From Betaproteobacteria bacterium (lineage in GTDB: Bacteria > Pseudomonadota > Gammaproteobacteria > Burkholderiales > Ga0077523): a stretch of 64,000 nucleotides of DNA. The notes under the pieces are model-generated. The model had not been told where the DNA came from, ran no database searches, and saw nothing but the letters and a program-made list of their open reading frames with translations. This document shows positions 3,906 through 13,038 of this stretch, in pieces (positions within the stretch are counted from its first letter, which is position 1; each line of letters starts with the position of its first letter). The position numbers and the translations under genes were made by a program. The stretch is from positions 64,321 through 128,320 of the forward strand of contig JANXYG010000050.1 of NCBI GenBank assembly GCA_025350245.1, written 5' to 3'.

Positions 3906-6900
3906 ATGACCGCCCTCGCCGCCGAAACACTTCGACTCGCCTTCGATTGCACTTTTCCGGATCTGTACGACACAACCGGTCTTGAACGCCTGGACCGGGT
4001 ATTTCTGGAACAACTGGCGCGCGTCGACCCGGCGCTCGCCTTTCGTATCGCTGAAGCGCGACTGGAGCCGGACGCCCTCGACCGCAAAGAAGAGGCTGCC
4101 CTGCTGCTGGAGGCGGGGCCTCATCTCGAAGATTTCCTGGCGCAATTGTTCGGCATCGAGGCGGCGGCCGCCGCCCTGGCCGAGCGACATCACGCGCTCG
4201 CCCCGGTGTATGCGGTCAAGCGGTTGTTCGTCCAGCGAAAAGCCATGAACCGCATCAAGCCCGACACAGCCGCCCTGCTCGACCCCGCGGCGGTGGAAAG
4301 GGATCTTGCGAGTGCCATGGGCATGGCCTTCAGTGAACTCGAGTTCGCCCGGAGCGTGACCCGCTGGCAGCAGGACGATCTGGCGCATGCCGCTGCCCTC
4401 GACGCCGCCATGCGCTATGCCGCCTGGGCCGCGCATACGCCCGAAGGCCAGGCCCGCCATGCATCGGGGGTGCTGTTCAAGGCCCCACGCAAGCTCGATT
4501 TCCAGCGCCTGGTACCGGTTCAGACACGCAGCGACGGTGGCATCACAATTCACAGCCTGTCGCATCTGCGTCGTCGCAACGGCTTCGCCCTGACCGACCC
4601 GGGCACCGATCTCAACGGCGCGCTCGATCAGGCCAACTACTGCATCTGGTGCCACGAACAAGGCAAGGATTCGTGCTCGCACGGCCTCACCGAAAAGGAT
4701 CCCGCACAAGGCTTTCGCAAGACCACTTTCGGCGTGCCCCTGGCCGGCTGCCCGCTGGAGGAGCGCATCTCCGAATTCCTCAAGCTCAAGACCGAGGGCT
4801 TGCCGCTCGCCGCATTGGCCATGATCGTGGTCGACAACCCGATGGTGGCCGCGACCGGCCACCGCATCTGCAATGACTGCATGAAGTCCTGCATCTACCA
4901 GAAGCAGGATCCGGTCAACATCCCCGAGGCCGAGACGCGCACGCTGAAAGACGTTCTCGAGCTGCCGTGGGGCTTCGAGATCTATTCGCTGCTCACGCGC
5001 TGGAATCCGCTCAACCTGCGGCGCCCGACGCCGCGCCGCGACAGCGGCCACAAGGTCCTGGTGGTCGGCATGGGGCCGGCCGGCTTCACGCTCGCGCATC
5101 ACCTGATGAACGACGGCCACACCGTCGTCGGCATCGACGGCCTGAAGATCGAGCCCCTTCCGGCCGCGCTTGCCGGCGTCGGCACCAGCGGCGAACGCGC
5201 CAGCTTCGAACCAGTGCGCGACGCCAATGCCCTGCGCGAGCCGCTCGACGACCGCATCATGGCCGGCTTCGGCGGCGTCGCCGAATACGGCATCACCGTG
5301 CGCTGGGACAAGAACTTCCTCAAGCTCATCCGGCTGCTGCTGGAACGACGCTCGGCGTTCGCGCTCTTCGGCGGCGTGCGCTTCGGCGGCACCCTCACGC
5401 TCGACGACGCCTTCGCGGCGGGGTTCGATCACGTCGCGATGTGCGCCGGTGCCGGCCGTCCGACCATCCTCGACCTGCCCAACGGCCTCGCGCGCGGCGT
5501 CCGCACCGCATCCGACTTCCTGATGGCCCTGCAACTGACCGGCGCCGCGCGGACCGATTCGGTGGCCAACATGCAGTTGCGCCTGCCGGTGGTGGTGATC
5601 GGCGGCGGACTCACCGCCATCGATACCGCGACCGAATCACTCGCCTACTACCCCTTGCAGGTGGAGAAGTTCCTGCGACGCTACGAGATCCTGTGTGCCG
5701 AGCGCGGCGTCGGCGCCGTGCGCACGGCGTGGACCGAAGAAGAGACCGTCATCGCCGAGGAATTCATCGGCCATGCGCGCGCCATTCGCGAAGAGCGGGC
5801 AGCAGCCGCCGCGCACGGTCGTGCGGCACGGGTCATCGAGCTGCTGCAAGGCTGGGGCGGCGTCACCGTCGCCTATCGCAAGCGCCTGATCGACAGCCCG
5901 AGCTATACACTCAATCACGAGGAAATCGAGAAAGCCCTCGAGGAAGGCATCCGGTTCGCGGAGAACCTGACGCCGGTCGCCGTCGAGGTCGACACGTTCG
6001 GTCATGCCGCCGCCCTGCTGGTCGAAAGTCGCCAGACGGCCGTCGACGGCAGCAGCACGACCACGACGACGGCGCTGCCGGCGCGCGCCATCCTGGTTGC
6101 CGCCGGCACCCAGCCGAATACGGTGGCAGGACGCGAAGACCCGGCACACTTCACCATCGCCGGTCGCTATTTCCAGGCCGTCGACGAAGACGGCCGGCCG
6201 GTCACCCCCGAACCCAGCGCCAAGCCCGAAGTGCCGCAGGTGCTGCTGTCGAAACGCGCGGACGGGCGGGCCGTGAGCTTCTTCGGCGATCTCCATCCTT
6301 CGTTCGCCGGCAACGTCGTCAAGGCGATGGGAAGCGCCAAGCTCGGCTATCCCGTCGTCAGCCGCGTTCTCGCGGCGACGGCGCCGGTGTCGGCGCTGTC
6401 GACAGCCGAATTCTTCTCGGGGCTCAATGCCGATCTGCGCGCCACCGTGCATCAGGTCGTGCGCCTGACGCCCAACATCATCGAGATTGTCCTGCATGCG
6501 CCGCGGGCTGCGCGCAGCTTCCAGCCCGGCCAGTTCTACCGCTTGCAGAACTTCGAGTCGCTGGCACCGGTGTCGGATGCGACTCGCCTGGCGATGGAAG
6601 GCCTGGCGCTCACCGGCGCCTGGGTCGACCGCGATCGCGGCCTGGTGTCGACCATCGTGCTCGAGATGGGCGGCTCATCCGATCTTTGCGCCCTGTTGCA
6701 GGTCGGCGAACCGGTCGTGTTGATGGGCCCGACCGGTACACCCACGGAAACGCCCGGCGGCGAAACCGTCGCGCTGGTGGGCGGCGGGCTCGGTAACGCG
6801 GTGCTGTTCTCCATCGGCCAGGCGCTGCGGCGGGCGGGATCCCGGGTGCTGTATTTCGCCGGCTACAAGAAGTTGATCGACCGCTACAAGATCGAGGAGA

Positions 6901-7415
6901 TCGAGGCCGCGGCCGATGTCGTCATCTGGTGTTCCGACGAGGCGCCCGGTTTCGTTCCCGAACGCCCGCAGGACCGGCGTTTCGTGGGCAACATCGTGCA
7001 AGCGATGCGCAGCTACGCGGAGGGCGAACTCGGTGCCCAGCCCATCGCGCTGGCCGACTGCGACCGCGTCATCGCCATCGGATCAGACCGGATGATGGCG
7101 GCTGTCGGCGCCGCACGCCACGGCGTCCTGCAGCCGCACCTGAAGCCGCATCACTTCGCCATCGGCTCGATCAACTCGCCGATGCAATGCATGATGAAGG
7201 AGATCTGCGCCCAGTGCCTGCAGCCGCAGATCGACCCCGAAACCGGCGAACGCAGTTACGTGTTCTCCTGCTTCAACCAGGACCAACCACTGGATCGGGT
7301 CGACTTTCCCGCGCTGGCGCAGCGCCTGGGCCAGAACTCGATCCAGGAAAAGCTCACCGCCCAGTGGATCGACCATTGCCTGATCCGCCTGCAGAAGCGC
7401 GCCGCGGTGGCATAG
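3906..7415 (+). CDS. Fused FAD-dependent oxidoreductase: GltD/NfnB-like plus PyrK/NfnA-like halves
   Basis: A 1169-aa iron-sulfur flavoprotein. Residues 1-240 are of unknown type. Residues 246-329 carry cysteines C246, C249, C257, C282, C322, C325 and C329, in the pattern of the N-terminal [4Fe-4S] domain of GltD-type enzymes. Residues 383-395 ([11 protein letters not shown]) form an FAD Rossmann fold, and [14 protein letters not shown] near 560 the NAD(P) fold. From about 830 a ferredoxin-reductase-like module follows ([20 protein letters not shown]), ending in C-x5-C-x2-C-x17-C, like the [2Fe-2S] site of PyrK. This is the domain set of the bifurcating NfnAB transhydrogenase on one chain. 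rnfB follows 8 bp downstream. Function is inferred: pyridine-nucleotide/ferredoxin electron transfer. Confidence 0.82.
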
Positions 7416-7423
7416 CCGCACCC

Positions 7424-8098
7424 ATGCGCTCAGCACTCGCCGATGCCATCGACGCGCTGCTACCGCAGACGCAGTGTCGCAAGTGCGGGTTCGATGGCTG
7501 CGCGCCGTATGCCGAGGCGATCGCCTCGGGCAGCGCCGGCATCGACCAGTGCCCGCCGGGAGGGCAACACGGCGTCGACCAACTGGCGACCCTGCTCAGT
7601 GCCGACTCGATGCCACTCGATCTTGCCCGCGGCACTGCGGGGGTGTCGGAACTCGCCCTCATCGACGAATCGCGGTGCATCGGTTGCACGCTTTGCATTC
7701 AGGCCTGCCCGGTCGATGCTATCGTCGGGGCGGCCAGCCGCATGCATACCGTGATGCTGGAGGACTGCAGTGGCTGCGGCCTGTGCGTCGCGCCGTGTCC
7801 GGTGGACTGCATCGCCATGGTACCGATATCGGCCCTCGCGCCGGCCCATGACGTGATGCCGAGATCGGAAGCGGCGCTGCCAGCACTCGCGGCGCGCTGG
7901 CGAGCCCGCCACGAAACGAGGCGACGGCGGCTCTCGGATGAACGTTTAACGCGTGAGGTGCGACTCGCCGAGAACGCATCTGGTTCTAGGCTTGCCGACG
8001 CCGACCTCACGGCGGCGGCACAGCGTAGATCGGCCGTTGCGGCCGCTTTGGCACGCGCCCGTGAGCGTCGTGCGGCAGATGCCGGGCGGCACGATTGA
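7424..8098 (+). CDS. rnfB: RnfB/RsxB-type iron-sulfur electron transfer protein
   Basis: A 224-aa ferredoxin-like protein. Near the N-terminus C-x2-C-x4-C-x16-C (CRKCGFDGC...QCPPGG) is the RnfB-type four-Cys cluster site. Two classical [4Fe-4S] motifs follow, [14 protein letters not shown] and [15 protein letters not shown]. The N-terminal membrane helix of E. coli RsxB is missing, and no rnfA/C/D/G/E is in the window, so it acts as a soluble carrier or with a distant complex. The C-terminal third is Arg/Ala-rich and low in complexity. The gene follows the fused flavoprotein by 8 bp and overlaps nth (TTGA), so a shared electron pathway with the flavoprotein is plausible. Confidence 0.88.
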
Positions 8099-8784
8099 AT
8101 CCATCGAAACGCGCCGAGATCTTCCGGCGGCTGCGCGAAGCAAATCCGCACCCGACTACCGAACTGGCCTATGCCAGTACGTTCGAGCTGCTGGTCGCGG
8201 TCGTGCTCTCGGCACAGGCCACCGATCGCAGCGTCAACCTGGCCACCGCAAAGCTGTTTCCGATGGCCAACACCCCGGCCGCGATCCTGGCGCTCGGACC
8301 CGACGCCCTGGAACAGATGATCCGGACCATCGGCCTGTACCGCACCAAGGCGCGCAACGTGATCGCGCTGTGCCGTCAACTGATCGACCTGCATGGCGGC
8401 GAGGTGCCGCGCGAGCGTGCGGCGCTGGAAGCGTTGCCGGGGGTGGGGCGCAAGACCGCCAATGTCGTCCTCAACACCGCGTTCGGCGAACCCACGATGG
8501 CGGTCGACACCCACATCTTCCGCCTGGCCAACCGGATCAATCTCGCACCCGGGAAAAATGTGGCCGAGGTCGAGCGCAAGCTTCTAAAGTTCGTACCCCA
8601 CGAGTTTCTGCAGGATGCCCACCACTGGTTGATCCTGCACGGGCGTTACGTGTGCACGGCAAGATCACCCGCCTGCACCAGGTGCATCATCGCGGACCTG
8701 TGCGAGTATCGGCACCAAACAATCGAGACACCGACCGCGGAGGCCGGCGCGGGTTCGTCCAGGGCTCGTCCTCGCGCCCTTTGA
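8095..8784 (+). CDS. nth: Endonuclease III (DNA glycosylase/AP lyase)
   Basis: Removes oxidised pyrimidines and nicks the abasic site in base excision repair. The 229-aa product has the helix-hairpin-helix [13 protein letters not shown] with the catalytic Lys of GRKTA, the catalytic Asp in AVDTHIFR, and the C-terminal [4Fe-4S] ligands C-x6-C-x2-C-x5-C ([17 protein letters not shown]). The start is TTG in a TTGA overlap with rnfB. The rsxB-nth order is also seen in E. coli. The last 20 residues are a low-complexity tail. Confidence 0.96.
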
Positions 8785-9215
8785 TGTTCGCACCGTCGCG
8801 CGATCAGGCGCGCGCATTTCTGACCGATACGTGGCGCAAGAGCCAGGCCGGCGAGTCACTGTCGGCGCTGGAACGCATGGTGATGGGGGTCTTCGCGCTA
8901 CATCCCGAGTACCACTCGATCCTCGAACGCCCGGAGGCCTTGGCGGATCGGGATTTTCGACCCGAGTCAGGCGAGATGAATCCGTTCCTGCACCTGCAGC
9001 TGCACCTGGCGGTCGAGGAGCAGTTGTCGATCGATCAGCCGTTCGGGATCAGGCAGGCCTTCGAATCCCTGCGTGCACGGCTGGGTGACGACCATGCCGC
9101 CCGCCACGCGGTACTCGAATGTCTGGGGGAAGTTCTGTGGCAAGGTCAGCGCACCGGCACAGGTCCCGATACGGAACTCTATCTGGGGCTTTTGCGCGAC
9201 CGCCTGAAACAGTAA
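8784..9215 (+). CDS. DUF1841 family protein
   Basis: A 143-aa soluble protein of unknown function that I recognise as DUF1841, found near nth in betaproteobacteria. Visible features are the opening [13 protein letters not shown], the central FALHPEYHSILE and the NPFLHLQLHLAVEEQL block rich in His and Leu. It starts at the ATG sharing a base with the nth stop (TGATG) and ends the forward operon; the next genes run the other way. Confidence 0.85.
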   Translation: MFAPSRDQARAFLTDTWRKSQAGESLSALERMVMGVFALHPEYHSILERPEALADRDFRPESGEMNPFLHLQLHLAVEEQLSIDQPFGIRQAFESLRARLGDDHAARHAVLECLGEVLWQGQRTGTGPDTELYLGLLRDRLKQ

Positions 9216-9245
9216 GGCACCGCCGGGGCGCCCCGAATCCAACCC

Positions 9246-9587
9246 TCAATACTTGACTTTCAGACCTTCCTGGTGCGAAACGTAGGCGGCGATGTCGGCG
9301 ATGTCCTGCTTCGAGAGGGCAGCCGCCATGGCATTCATGATCACGTTGATGCGCTTCTTGCTCTTGTAGGCGGCAAGGGTGTGCTTGATGTAGTCCTCGT
9401 GCTGACCGGCCAGCAGCGGATAGTCGGGCGTGGTCGGCTTCGCTCCCTGCTCCCCGTGACACGCCTTGCAGGTTTCGAACTTGGTCTGCCCGGCCAGCGA
9501 ATCACCGCCCGCGATCGCCTGACCGCAACCCCATCCGAATGACGCCATTGCACCGACCACGATGGCGACGCGAAGCCGTTTGTTCAT
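9246..9587 (-). CDS. Small class I cytochrome c
   Basis: A 113-aa exported monoheme cytochrome. It has a signal peptide (hydrophobic residues about 8-26, ending near GQAIAGG), heme-binding CKACH at 40-44 and a likely distal Met in the segment IMNAMAAALSKQDIADIAAY. This is the short cytochrome c553/c4-half type. The start ATG has AGGAAA just upstream. It lies 32 bp after a second cytochrome of the same type and downstream of the SoxYZ-like carrier, so it probably takes electrons in that periplasmic module. Confidence 0.92.
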   Translation of the reverse strand: MNKRLRVAIVVGAMASFGWGCGQAIAGGDSLAGQTKFETCKACHGEQGAKPTTPDYPLLAGQHEDYIKHTLAAYKSKKRINVIMNAMAAALSKQDIADIAAYVSHQEGLKVKY

Positions 9588-9619
9588 GCTGTTTTCCTGC
9601 GTGAAATCCGGGGCGCCCA

Positions 9620-9949
9620 TCACTTGGGCCCTGACGAGTAGTAGGCAGCGAGATCTGCCATGTCTTGTTCTGACAGCGTGCCGGCGATGGCGCGCATCGA
9701 AGGATGCTGCCGGTCTCCGGCCTTGTAGGCCTTGAGCGCCGCGACGATGTAGCCGGCTTGCTGGCCGCCAAGCCTGGGGACCGAATAAACCTCCGGGTAG
9801 GCCGTGCGGAAGCCCTCGATGCCGTGACAGCCCTGACACATCCGGGTTTTCTTGCTGCCCGCCGTCGCATCGCCTGCTGCCCAAACCGGCCCTACCGTCG
9901 TCACGCAAATGCCCAGCGCCAGAAAGCTTGTGGCCAACTTCTTGATCAT
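9620..9949 (-). CDS. Small class I cytochrome c
   Basis: A 109-aa exported cytochrome c paralogous to the gene 3' of it: signal peptide (KKLATSFLALGICVTT, ending near VWAAG), CQGCH heme site, and the C-terminal SMRAIAGTLSEQDMADLAAYY with a candidate Met ligand. The ATG at 9949 is chosen because the signal peptide begins there; longer in-frame extensions lack sense. No strong Shine-Dalgarno is visible. The tandem pair could act like a split di-heme c4 cytochrome, which is inference. Confidence 0.9.
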   Translation of the reverse strand: MIKKLATSFLALGICVTTVGPVWAAGDATAGSKKTRMCQGCHGIEGFRTAYPEVYSVPRLGGQQAGYIVAALKAYKAGDRQHPSMRAIAGTLSEQDMADLAAYYSSGPK

Positions 9950-10108
9950 GATGATTTTGTGCCCCGCAACGGGTTGTGTAAAACCCTTGAATTGTGCGGG
10001 ATAGAACGGGGCCCGGTCAACGCCTGGAAAATTCATCGTTCGCGGAGGCGCCCGAGCAGTTCGCTCCGCCATCGGGGTGCGGACGCAGAGCGCCTGCACA
10101 TCGCCTTC

Positions 10109-10942
10109 TCAGCCACCGGGCAGTGGCACGCCCTCGACGATCACGGCCTTGTGCACATACCGCTTGTCGTGGGTGTCTTCCACGGTCGCCTCGAGCGCAC
10201 CTTCCTTCTCGGGGATGAAGTAGAACCGGAAGCTTGGATTGTCGGAAATGGAGAAATCGACATCGGCATCCATGACCGGCCGGCCGGCGTAGGTGACCGA
10301 TACGTGGCGCACGAACTGTGGCACCTTGCTCGAATCGAAATCCATCGCCAACGCCGACTCGTTCGGATGCCGGATCATCAGTTGCACCAGGGCGGGCTTG
10401 CTGGCCTCCACCGTTTCGTCGGCGAACCGGAATTTCATGGTGCCGACGAGATTCGCCGGCATGCGGTTCTTGTCGGCGGGGGCGGAACAGCCGCCTGCCG
10501 CCTTGACCCATTTCGACGACATGTACAACTCGCCATCGTTGGTTTCGGCGATCGCACGCACGAAGGAGAAATCCTCGAATCGCAGGCGGGTTTCGATCTG
10601 CGCGCGCCCGCTGTCCGGCGTGAACCGGAAAATGCCGGCCGCCGGCGAGGGATTGCGCTCGACGATGAGATAGACGTTCTTGATATAGCGGCCGCTCGAT
10701 TGGTCGATCTGCGCCTTGACCGACACCGGCACCGTGGAGGCATCATCGGCCCGGGTGTTCAGATACACCCGGATCACATCCTTGCCGTCGCGGATTTCCT
10801 TGTCGCCGAACATCATCTGCCGGATCGGCGGCCAGTACTGGCTCTGCGCGGGATCGGGCTCAGCCTTTTCGTTGGCGCCCGCCACCAGTGGCAGCGCCAT
10901 CACGGCCACAGCCGCCACGACCAATCTGACGAACGAACGCAT
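10109..10942 (-). CDS. Quinoprotein dehydrogenase-associated SoxYZ-like carrier
   Basis: A 277-aa secreted protein: signal peptide 1-22, a SoxY-like domain (about 35-155) and a SoxZ-like domain (about 165-270). The SoxY part ends in GGCSAP with Cys152, matching the swinging-arm Cys that carries sulfur intermediates in SoxY. Fusion of both halves is the mark of the family named quinoprotein dehydrogenase-associated SoxYZ-like carrier. The true substrate of that family is not established. GGGAG lies 7 nt before the ATG. Neighbours are two cytochromes c and two MBL-fold proteins, but no PQQ dehydrogenase is in the window. Confidence 0.87.
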   Translation of the reverse strand: MRSFVRLVVAAVAVMALPLVAGANEKAEPDPAQSQYWPPIRQMMFGDKEIRDGKDVIRVYLNTRADDASTVPVSVKAQIDQSSGRYIKNVYLIVERNPSPAAGIFRFTPDSGRAQIETRLRFEDFSFVRAIAETNDGELYMSSKWVKAAGGCSAPADKNRMPANLVGTMKFRFADETVEASKPALVQLMIRHPNESALAMDFDSSKVPQFVRHVSVTYAGRPVMDADVDFSISDNPSFRFYFIPEKEGALEATVEDTHDKRYVHKAVIVEGVPLPGG

Positions 10943-11007
10943 CTTCACTCTCCCTGCCAGAACTAGCGATGACCGATGATAAAGCCTTATGCACCGCGCG
11001 CATAACC

Positions 11008-11949
11008 TTATTCCTCCCACTCCAGCTCCGCATAGGCCGCGGTCACGTTGCGGCGGTGAAACCGGTCGAACGCAGCCCATTTCGATGCCTCCGACAAGCC
11101 CACGGTGTCCACCGCCTCCTCGATGGTCCGCCGCGCCTTGATCGCCGCGCGCGTCTCGCGCACGATCAGTTGCAAGTACTCCTGCTGGGGCTTCAGCGCG
11201 TCGGGCCAGGGCAATGCGGTGCGCCCATGGCCGGGCACGAACTGGCGCACTTCGATGCCGGCAAGCTGGTCGATCACGCGGATGAAGCCGGTGATGGTGC
11301 CATCGACCACCGGGGTGTGCTCGGCGAACAGCAGGTCGCCCAACCATAGCGTCGCGGTCGCGGTGTCGAACACGGTCAGGTCGTTGTCGGTGTGCGCCGG
11401 TGGCCACGCATGAAGCACGATGGTGCGACCGCCGAGGTCCAGCGTGATTTCATCCTTGACCAGCAATGTCGGCGGCACGACATCGCTACCCGCCGCGAGG
11501 TCCCCGAGGTCGCGCTCGAGCGACTTCAGATACGGCCGGGCGCGCTGTCCCAGCGCTCGCGGAAGATTCTCATGTCCAACGACGGTCGCGTTGTCTGGCC
11601 GGAACGCTGCGGCGCCGAAGAAATGGTCGGGATGGGTGTGGGTGATGATGACGTAGCACACCGGCTTATCCGTGATCCCCCGCAGCGCCGCGCGCAGGGC
11701 CTGTCCGACCCGGAGCGATCCGCCGGGATCGATCACGGCGACGCACCGCTCGCCGATGATGAAGCCGCTGTTGGCCTGATCCCCCGCGTTCGCCGGCGAG
11801 CGATCGTCGAGGCTGCCGCGATGCACGTGATTGCCGGGTGCCACTTCTTCCACGGTGAAGCCGTCGAGCGGATCGGTCTCGGCCCGCACCGAGGAAAAAC
11901 AGACCACGAGAACAATCGCCAACGCTATGGCGGCAGGATGACGTTGCAT
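11008..11949 (-). CDS. Quinoprotein relay system-type zinc metallohydrolase (MBL fold), intact metal site
   Basis: A 313-aa exported metallo-beta-lactamase-fold hydrolase. The signal peptide covers about residues 1-23 (IALAIVLVVCFSSVRA). Metal ligands are complete: THTHPDHFFG (H-x-H-x-D-H), the His of PAHTDND, the Asp of WLGDLLF and the His of FVPGHG. It is similar to SoxH-like hydrolases and to the metallohydrolases that accompany SoxYZ-like carriers. I start at the ATG at 11949, where the signal peptide begins. It sits 65 bp upstream of the carrier in one operon. A thioester or persulfide bond on the carrier Cys is an inferred target. Confidence 0.85.
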   Translation of the reverse strand: MQRHPAAIALAIVLVVCFSSVRAETDPLDGFTVEEVAPGNHVHRGSLDDRSPANAGDQANSGFIIGERCVAVIDPGGSLRVGQALRAALRGITDKPVCYVIITHTHPDHFFGAAAFRPDNATVVGHENLPRALGQRARPYLKSLERDLGDLAAGSDVVPPTLLVKDEITLDLGGRTIVLHAWPPAHTDNDLTVFDTATATLWLGDLLFAEHTPVVDGTITGFIRVIDQLAGIEVRQFVPGHGRTALPWPDALKPQQEYLQLIVRETRAAIKARRTIEEAVDTVGLSEASKWAAFDRFHRRNVTAAYAELEWEE

Positions 11950-12108
11950 GGAATAGGGGTCACAAACAAGAGGGGTGACGAACAAGACCCGGTATCCTAA
12001 CCCGGTCCCGCCATTCCCCATTCCTCACGGTGATCGCATCGCACGGTCGCCTGCGCCGCCGCTACCGCGAGCCTAGTCCGCATGCCGCCCCGACCAATGA
12101 GGTACCCG

Positions 12109-13038
12109 ATGCTGCCACGAGTCCTGGCAGCGCTAATGCTGCTGTTGACCCTGACCTGTGCCCGCGCGGATGCGCTCATGCCGGTCGAGGTTGCCCCCGG
12201 GGTGTATGCCTTCATCGCCGACCTCGGCGAGGTCGCCCCGGGAAACGCCGGCCGGGTCGGCAACAGTGGCTTCGTCGTGGGCGTCACCGGCATTGCCGTC
12301 ATCGACACCGGTGTCTCATTCCGGCACGGTCAGGCCCTGCTCGCCGCGATCCGGCGGGTCAGCGACCAACCGATCACGACCGTCATCATCACTCACGCAG
12401 TACAGGAGTTCCTGTTCGGCAATGCCGCGTTCGAGCCAACCGGCGCCCGGCTCATCTCCCACAGCAAGAGCATCGACCTGATGCGACAACGCTGCGACCA
12501 TTGTCTCGAGAACCTGCGTCTGATCCTGGGCGAGGAAGCCATGGCCGGGACCCGGCTGGTGATTCCCGCACCGGCCATCGAGGGCGACCACGAACGCATC
12601 GACATCGGCGGACGAACACTGGATCTGCTGCATCCGGGCTGGGCCGCGACTCCGGGTGATCTGCTGGTGCTCGATCCCGCGACCGGCGCGTTGTTCGCGG
12701 GCGGTGTGGTGTCGATCGACCGCATTCCGGAGCTGCGCGATGCCGACTTCGGCGGCTGGGTGCGAACCCTGGAACAACTGCCGCTGACCGGCGCTGGTGT
12801 GGTCATACCAGGTCACGGACCACCGGTCCCGATCGGGCAGGCGCGGACCACGCTCGACTACCTGATGGCGCTGGACCGGCAGATGCGCAAGCTGTTCGAC
12901 GGCGGCATCGGCCTGATGGACGCCATCGAGGGGGCCGCAGTCCCCGCATTCGCCGACTGGGCGGGCTACACGACCATCCACCGCAAGAACGCACTCGAAC
13001 GCTACCTCCAGCTCGAACTCGACGAACTCGGCCGCTAG
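12109..13038 (+). CDS. MBL-fold exported protein of quinoprotein relay type, metal site lost
   Basis: A 309-aa exported protein with the same fold as the divergent neighbour (VPGHG/IPGHG, DTGVSFRHGQALLAAI, VIITH) but with most metal ligands replaced. H-x-H-x-D-H reads HAVQEF, the AHTDND His segment reads AATPGD, and the GDLLF Asp segment reads GGVVS. Only the first His and the final GHG His remain. It should not bind a di-zinc centre in the usual way and may be a binding or scaffold protein. The ATG at 12109 has GAGGT 6 nt upstream and starts the signal peptide; ATGs at 12082 and 12097 are less likely. Confidence 0.8.
   Translation: MLPRVLAALMLLLTLTCARADALMPVEVAPGVYAFIADLGEVAPGNAGRVGNSGFVVGVTGIAVIDTGVSFRHGQALLAAIRRVSDQPITTVIITHAVQEFLFGNAAFEPTGARLISHSKSIDLMRQRCDHCLENLRLILGEEAMAGTRLVIPAPAIEGDHERIDIGGRTLDLLHPGWAATPGDLLVLDPATGALFAGGVVSIDRIPELRDADFGGWVRTLEQLPLTGAGVVIPGHGPPVPIGQARTTLDYLMALDRQMRKLFDGGIGLMDAIEGAAVPAFADWAGYTTIHRKNALERYLQLELDELGR

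Follow-up and report, generated by a model that had tools for sequence, protein, structure and literature searches.

A thiol-carrier gene module probably serving remote PQQ alcohol dehydrogenases in a betaproteobacterium, with an MBL-fold protein that has a CxxC pair and no zinc motif

Fused SoxYZ carriers and SoxH-like hydrolases accompany lanthanide/pyrroloquinoline quinone (PQQ) alcohol dehydrogenases in several Proteobacteria. In Pseudomonas putida and Methylorubrum extorquens, genes encoding such dehydrogenases are followed by genes for a fused SoxYZ, a SoxH-like protein and a rhodanese, the operon of M. extorquens also including a thioredoxin-like gene, and that report, in the part available, offers as hypotheses that disulfides are formed or that PQQ is shielded from sulfur (PMC12997753). 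SoxYZ fusions and soxH were also described near PQQ alcohol dehydrogenase and xoxF genes of symbionts, for which the accessible text argues a role in carbon metabolism (PMC11237559). Here we describe a related set of five genes, encoding two small cytochromes c, a fused SoxYZ carrier and two proteins of the metallo-beta-lactamase (MBL) fold, MBL1 and MBL2, at positions 9246 to 13038 of a stretch of 64,000 nucleotides (the window) from the genome of a Betaproteobacteria bacterium (assembly GCA_025350245.1, contig JANXYG010000050.1, positions 64,321 to 128,320). An earlier interpretation made from the letters alone (the sequence-only reading) had titled this set a quinoprotein relay module without a quinoprotein.

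Judging from sequence comparisons, the set is very probably an accessory of XoxF and other PQQ dehydrogenases. It is also reasonably probable that it constitutes a periplasmic thiol-carrier accessory for lanthanide/PQQ alcohol dehydrogenases (XoxF and its kin) that has been split from the dehydrogenase and has MBL2 as a redox partner; that MBL2 is the thiol-redox partner of the carrier is, taken by itself, possible if somewhat doubtful on its sequence features. At the scale of the whole genome the supposedly quinoprotein-less module is an ordinary split cluster, indicating that a quinoprotein cluster can split across a genome while its parts persist as sets.

The five-gene set and the quinoproteins of its genome

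All five open reading frames (ORFs) were recovered at the positions first assigned to them, as follows:

9246..9587, minus strand: cytA, monohaem cytochrome c (CKACH) of 113 amino acids with a signal-like segment; Pfam Cytochrom_C; conserved beside cytB
9620..9949, minus strand: cytB, monohaem cytochrome c (CQGCH) of 109 amino acids with a signal-like segment; Pfam Cytochrom_C; conserved beside cytA
10109..10942, minus strand: fused SoxY-SoxZ carrier of 277 amino acids, with Cys152 in GGCSAP; TIGR04557, SoxY and SoxZ Pfam domains
11008..12021, minus strand: MBL1, zinc metallohydrolase (quinoprotein relay type 2) with HTHPDH; alternative start Met at 11949; TIGR04559
12082..13038, plus strand: MBL2, MBL-fold protein with HAVQEF in place of HxHxDH and with C138-x-x-C141; alternative start Met at 12100

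MBL2 is thus transcribed divergently from MBL1, the other four genes all lying on the minus strand. A hydrophobic signal-like segment, read by eye from the sequence, is present near the start of all five proteins (from the second Met in MBL1). The identification of the two small proteins as cytochromes c was confirmed by a CxxCH haem motif and a Pfam Cytochrom_C match over the cut-off in both.

The carrier belongs to TIGR04557, the "quinoprotein dehydrogenase-associated SoxYZ-like carrier" (222.5 bits, cut-off 140), in agreement with its first description as a fused SoxYZ-like protein with a GGC cysteine, which is Cys152 when numbered from the start Met. Its scores fall below the cut-offs of true SoxY (72.8 versus 125, TIGR04488) and SoxZ (50.8 versus 76, TIGR04490), placing it outside the carriers of the Sox thiosulfate pathway. 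The swinging arm lies inside the protein, as a loop that separates its SoxY domain from its SoxZ domain, with GGC conserved in 56/56 rows of the carrier alignment and CSAP in 52/56 (twelve loci repeating contigs already included were omitted). In the AlphaFold model of the carrier (predicted local distance difference test, pLDDT, of 86.8) the block holding the arm averages 63, lower than any other part except the signal-like segment and the C-terminal end, which fits a mobile loop.

Quinoproteins are abundant in the rest of the assembly (3.99 Mb, 156 contigs, 95.8% complete). Eight near-full-length matches to TIGR03075 (PQQ alcohol dehydrogenase) were found, four of them over the cut-off, in addition to a ninth in two pieces (contig C122) and weaker fragments, and these eight matches led us to reject the notion of a genome without a quinoprotein. 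The claim that the window itself has no PQQ dehydrogenase stands insofar as no TIGR03075 match lies there, the search being aimed at this family and not at every quinoprotein family, and is an effect of where the window ends. The best match, on contig C91, is XoxF-like and has both WDFDG and adjacent cysteines; the WDFDG-type Asp, which we take to be the lanthanide-type position, is also found in the match on contig C6. On C91 the XoxF-like dehydrogenase gene is followed by genes for a substrate-binding protein, a trypsin-like protein and a second fused SoxYZ, so that the search for XoxF-like genes recommended earlier found one beside another fused carrier. The SoxYZ tree gave no settled placement for the C91 carrier. 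The parallel search for sox genes was also positive, with separate SoxY and SoxZ genes on two other contigs, together with SoxA-, SoxC- and SoxD-like neighbours named by eye.

A pqqC gene lies on the contig of the window, upstream of the window start and 21.5 kb from MBL2, and near it are pqqB- and pqqE-like ORFs and a pqqD-like ORF of 98 amino acids, all three named by eye. Within about 11 kb before the pqqB-like gene, the same contig (locus L022, 9121-16653) encodes, also by eye, an FTR1-like/cytochrome protein, a TonB receptor and a two-component pair, which are possibly metal uptake and regulatory genes for the PQQ system.

Linkage and distribution among relatives

The complete five-gene set was found in 13 genomes including that of the window (G000, G002, G003, G005-G010, G034, G049, G075 and G080), mostly with the same flanking genes, and its recurrence indicates that the arrangement is not due to chance. 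The order cytochromes-carrier-MBL1-MBL2 (same-order copies L124-L137) is shared by the genus of the window and families f24, f39 and f19, again with mostly identical flanks. Most of the set is present in three more genomes: G001, on a 3.9-kb contig; G011, without the carrier; and G093, with MBL1 on another contig. The G011 locus (L067/L126) is a whole contig of 3.3 kb with no fused SoxYZ between cytB and MBL1, from a genome 64% complete, and its carrier gap may reflect either real gene loss or faulty assembly. Of the 16 genomes, 10 have pqqC on the contig of MBL2, 21.5-40.2 kb away; in five of the other six the MBL2 contig is at most 50 kb long and pqqC is located elsewhere, and in G011 no pqqC was found. 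No PQQ dehydrogenase adjoins the five-gene order in the stretches read (3-20 kb). Among the conserved neighbours is an open frame of 1169 amino acids (window 3906-7415), which is maintained beside the module with an Nth-like gene and looks by eye like an oxidoreductase that binds FAD/NAD and has cysteine motifs.

In other Burkholderiales the carrier and MBL genes occur inside XoxF/pqq clusters, which points to a split quinoprotein accessory module in the window. The order there is XoxF, binding protein, trypsin-like protein, MBL1, SoxYZ, MBL2, SoxYZ and pqqE-C-B in one locus, with single parts missing or unmatched in many cases, and was seen in Rhizobacter, Ideonella, Rubrivivax, Leptothrix, Sphaerotilus and others. 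Within the stretches examined, 15 of the 19 loci L138-L156 contain an XoxF-like dehydrogenase and 7/19 contain pqq genes, and several further genomes of the same bacterial order agree with the XoxF linkage. MBL2 is directly followed by a fused SoxYZ and then by a thioredoxin-like gene in 17/19, the exceptions being L141, at a contig end, and L152, which has neither gene; when three of the thioredoxin-like proteins were run against Pfam, one scored over the thioredoxin cut-off and two just below it. The sequence-only reading had held that a PQQ dehydrogenase just outside, in relatives sharing the gene order, would make this an ordinary split cluster. Such a dehydrogenase is indeed there in the 15 loci, although in a different gene order, whereas none adjoins the five-gene order in the stretches read. 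Seven genomes, chosen because an XoxF-like gene and a fused SoxYZ shared one contig, have a separate XoxF-binding protein-trypsin-like-SoxYZ locus without any matched MBL gene; in one of them the trypsin-like gene was also unmatched.

To relate the fused carrier to quinoproteins more broadly, 120 relatives were profiled, 38 of them with a PQQ dehydrogenase (TIGR03075, E<=1e-80) and 82 without. A fused carrier, defined as a match over the TIGR04557 cut-off with no inner stops, is present in 34/38 of the former and 0/82 of the latter. Initially 38 genomes had exceeded the TIGR04557 cut-off; four (G043, G087, G065 and G099) were dropped because the match spans a stop codon, i.e. represents separate soxY and soxZ genes. 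The 34 fused-carrier genomes span 15 families, and 32 of them have pqqC over the cut-off. The CxxC form of MBL2 was assigned by tree to 28 genomes from 11 families, and was present in 30 of the 38 PQQ-dehydrogenase genomes after weak matches had been checked (20 further regions and four older loci, the two added members lying outside the tree); as far as examined, it occurs in 0/82 of the genomes lacking a PQQ dehydrogenase. In this profile the fused carrier occurs only together with a PQQ dehydrogenase. The genome matches, the profile and the XoxF/pqq linkage lend good support to the suggestion of a remote dehydrogenase that the module may serve.

The two members added by this check both come from PQQ-dehydrogenase genomes. 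In L208 (G059) a CxxC MBL gene is 2.3 kb from pqqC, and the same genome encodes a TIGR04558-type protein next to a PQQ dehydrogenase and a fused SoxYZ. In L163 (G014, 6983-10614) a divergent CxxC MBL gene directly adjoins separate soxY-soxZ-soxA and faces a fused SoxYZ, and by its gene content this locus appears to be a bridge between Sox and relay genes.

Zinc-motif loss and the CxxC pair of MBL2

The two MBL proteins, described earlier as a pair of exported MBL-fold proteins, do share the fold and a signal-like segment, but are unlike each other. MBL1 scores 382.6 bits with TIGR04559 (quinoprotein relay system zinc metallohydrolase 2; cut-off 280) and its ligand positions are intact, including the zinc motif HTHPDH. 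MBL2 matches Pfam PF00753 (33.0 bits, cut-off 22.7) and falls below both relay models (203.6 versus 280 for TIGR04559 and 182.8 versus 300 for TIGR04558), as do ten further MBL2-like or related rows. In its zinc site HxHxDH has become HAVQEF, the third-His position is Ala and the bridging-Asp position is Gly, PGHG being kept. The sequence-only reading passed over both this missing zinc motif and the conserved CxxC.

In an MBL tree of 83 rows, the MBL1-type clade (35 rows) and the TIGR04558-type clade (14 rows) each received 100/100 support, six rows were other MBL proteins, and the remaining 28, of MBL2 type, were separated from the other 55 by a branch with 100/98 support, the tree being unrooted; three rows of this group (L103, L083 and L087) have long branches and an unsure placement. 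MBL2 lies beside the TIGR04558 and TIGR04559 clades, and this position, the scores under the cut-offs and the missing HxHxDH rule it out as an ordinary zinc enzyme of either family. C138 and C141 are conserved in 28/28 rows of the MBL2 group and in 0/55 of the other rows, so the CxxC is not a general trait of these proteins, and in the protein of the window they are the only cysteines outside the signal-like segment. HxHxDH is absent from all 28 as well; this loss is not peculiar to MBL2, since seven of the 55 other rows share it (L090, L091, L095, one row of L092, and L109-L111), leaving the CxxC as the unique trait. L109, L110 and L111 (family f49, TIGR04558-type) have NxHPDY for HxHPDH, Asp replaced by Gly and no CxxC, yet score over the zinc metallohydrolase 1 cut-off, and from their sequences they appear to form a second, separate relay MBL lineage with an eroded zinc site. 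Within the MBL2 group the pqq-adjacent rows retain more of the old zinc site (HPHPEN, GHT), such that its loss looks stepwise.

All 33 loci L124-L156, of which 12 repeat contigs already counted, also have the CxxC and lack HxHxDH. They were retrieved by patterns containing QEF and GTRL, none of which contained CxxC; the invariance of Q108 and F110 in the MBL2 alignment (A4) and the loop conservation are therefore partly by construction. The CxxC is invariant across 26 diverse MBL2 rows, and in four close pairs the ratio of nonsynonymous to synonymous substitution rates (dN/dS) of MBL2 is 0.14-0.20, indicating purifying selection and excluding a plain pseudogene; the corresponding values for MBL1 are 0.10-0.19. 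The AlphaFold model of MBL2 (pLDDT 93.6) has a clear alpha-beta/beta-alpha MBL fold. Its closest solved fold is 8d2z, an MBL superfamily protein from Burkholderia cenocepacia (VIA Z 32.3, root-mean-square deviation (rmsd) 2.4, 273 aligned), followed by the chlorothalonil dehalogenase 6uxu (VIA Z 30.9, rmsd 2.4, 278 aligned), both differing from MBL2 with 22-24% identity. The surroundings of the CxxC are not a thioredoxin fold, both cysteines lying in the model inside helix 128-149 of the MBL fold.

When 398 genomes sampled from the phylum were searched with alignment A4 (five candidates scored per genome), the CxxC form was present, among the 30 best matches taken one per genome, only in the genome of the window and in G357, a genome of the same bacterial order; 34 of 39 listed relatives were included in alignment A5. 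A literature search for relay or CxxC pseudo-MBL proteins in one limited collection, judged by title and the start of the abstract, returned no description of the CxxC form. MBL2 is an undescribed type as far as the NCBIfam and Pfam models and the literature searched show. Because the nearest models are named zinc hydrolases, proteins of this type are prone to be annotated as such.

Proposed role, rival explanations and known systems

The proposal builds on the gene content of the locus, the zinc-motif loss and CxxC gain of MBL2, the co-occurrence with PQQ dehydrogenases and the XoxF/pqq linkage in relatives. The cysteine of SoxYZ carries a bound group, and hydrolytic release is exemplified by SoxB in the Sox system and by glyoxalase II on glutathione thioesters. 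By analogy, the dehydrogenases (XoxF on C91 and its paralogues) would work in the periplasm, and their chemistry would make, or be endangered by, a group that binds Cys152 of the carrier, which may be of aldehyde or acyl type or a sulfur/sulfonate group. The zinc protein MBL1 would release this group hydrolytically from Cys152. MBL2 would no longer hydrolyse, retaining the MBL surface for docking onto the same carrier, and its C138 and C141 could undergo thiol-disulfide exchange, either resetting an oxidised Cys152 or passing its electrons on, with the two cytochromes c taking electrons towards an oxidase. The lost zinc site together with the fixed cysteine pair suggests a thiol-handling role for MBL2, its docking and redox step being the least certain part of this mechanism. 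More tentatively still, MBL2 may be the founder of a family not described before, descended from an MBL-fold zinc hydrolase that turned into a zinc-independent dithiol protein. Its catalytic loop would have been rewritten and an invariant CxxC acquired on a later helix, and it would now handle the swinging-arm thiol of a carrier serving lanthanide/PQQ alcohol oxidation; if so, the module would work on one carrier with two MBL arms, one hydrolytic and one redox. In any case, the fixed CxxC pair offers a handle on what the carrier carries.

Several observations weigh against an accessory of this kind. The XoxF gene of C91 is cut off, the contig beginning inside the dehydrogenase, and a search run without a positive control found no thioredoxin-like gene in the genome of the window. 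Four of the 38 PQQ-dehydrogenase genomes have no carrier (G011, G029, G066 and G106), MBL2 is not universal among them, and the genomes are related, so that the counts are not independent events and no p-value is leaned on. HxHxDH loss is, as seen above, shared with other MBL rows. In thioredoxins the CxxC is at the start of a helix, and its location within helix 128-149 of MBL2 means that the pair could be structural or metal-binding. According to the portion available of PMC12997753, transposon insertions in the P. putida genes caused minimal phenotypes, in growth without rare earths. Finally, in G035, a genome with no PQQ-dehydrogenase match, an MBL1-type protein (L096) is encoded within a few kb of separate soxY-soxZ-soxA genes, and this speaks for MBL1 having a sulfur role.

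This last case agrees with a protective function, proposed in what is accessible of PMC12997753 and PMC11237559 from the inhibition by thiosulfate of Hyphomicrobium growth on methanol, in which the carrier and MBL1 would capture thiosulfate or sulfane sulfur, which otherwise forms PQQ adducts, and set it free again while MBL2 and a thioredoxin-like protein keep the carrier reduced. The separate SoxY and SoxZ genes on two contigs of the window's genome, with their SoxA-, SoxC- and SoxD-like neighbours, are also in line with it. In G068, however, both TIGR04557 matches are fused and no separate SoxY or SoxZ was found at E<=1e-10, alongside ten PQQ-dehydrogenase matches; the carrier hence does not need a Sox pathway, and we consider sulfur protection unlikely. 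Slightly less likely again is a maturation role, in which the module would form or protect the disulfide between the vicinal cysteines of PQQ dehydrogenases, MBL2 acting as dithiol partner and the carrier as an intermediate. The disulfide idea is present in the available text of PMC12997753, adjacent cysteines occur in six of the eight PQQ dehydrogenases of the genome including the XoxF-like one, and the CxxC of MBL2 and the thioredoxin-like neighbour in relatives would fit; yet the other two of the eight lack adjacent cysteines, G066 lacks any TIGR04557 match at E<=1e-10 despite its two strong PQQ dehydrogenases, and the zinc hydrolase is left unexplained.

It is also conceivable that MBL2 is no more than a paralogue in decay that persists through its neighbourhood, with the CxxC as a structural disulfide. 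The graded erosion of the zinc site, with HPHPEN and GHT in the pqq-linked members, and a dN/dS slightly above that of MBL1 in 3/4 pairs are what decay would produce; its low dN/dS, the CxxC invariant over diverse rows, the confident fold and its maintenance in 11 families argue to the contrary and make decay improbable. That the module handles some other thiol-carried substrate, unrelated to quinoproteins, would agree with the lack of an adjoining dehydrogenase in the stretches read within the genus, but is highly improbable given the absence of the fused carrier from all 82 genomes without a PQQ-dehydrogenase match and the clustering of these genes with XoxF/pqq in other relatives.

The proposed thiol-carrier accessory of remote PQQ dehydrogenases has close parallels among known systems. 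The fused SoxYZ PP_2677 and SoxH-like PP_2678 of P. putida similarly tie a carrier and a SoxH-like MBL protein to lanthanide/PQQ dehydrogenases, as do the fused SoxYZ and SoxH-like MBL protein of M. extorquens (META1p1703-1705, with the thioredoxin-like gene); the module described here differs in its remote dehydrogenase, its two cytochromes c and its extra zinc-less CxxC MBL protein, the last of which is not mentioned in the part of PMC12997753 available. The soxYZ-S2/S4 fusions of Thiodiazotropha resemble it in the fusion, in soxH and in a neighbourhood of PQQ alcohol dehydrogenase or xoxF, although these bacteria are lucinid symbionts and no CxxC MBL protein is mentioned in the accessible text (PMC11237559). 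The zinc metallohydrolases 1 and 2 (TIGR04558 and TIGR04559) share the fold and gene company of MBL2, which differs from them by its scores, its missing zinc motif and its CxxC. With the SoxYZ of the Sox thiosulfate pathway the carrier shares the SoxY and SoxZ domains and the GGC arm; it is set apart from that SoxYZ by being fused, by scoring below the SoxY and SoxZ cut-offs and by an arm that is internal (GGCSAP) instead of C-terminal.

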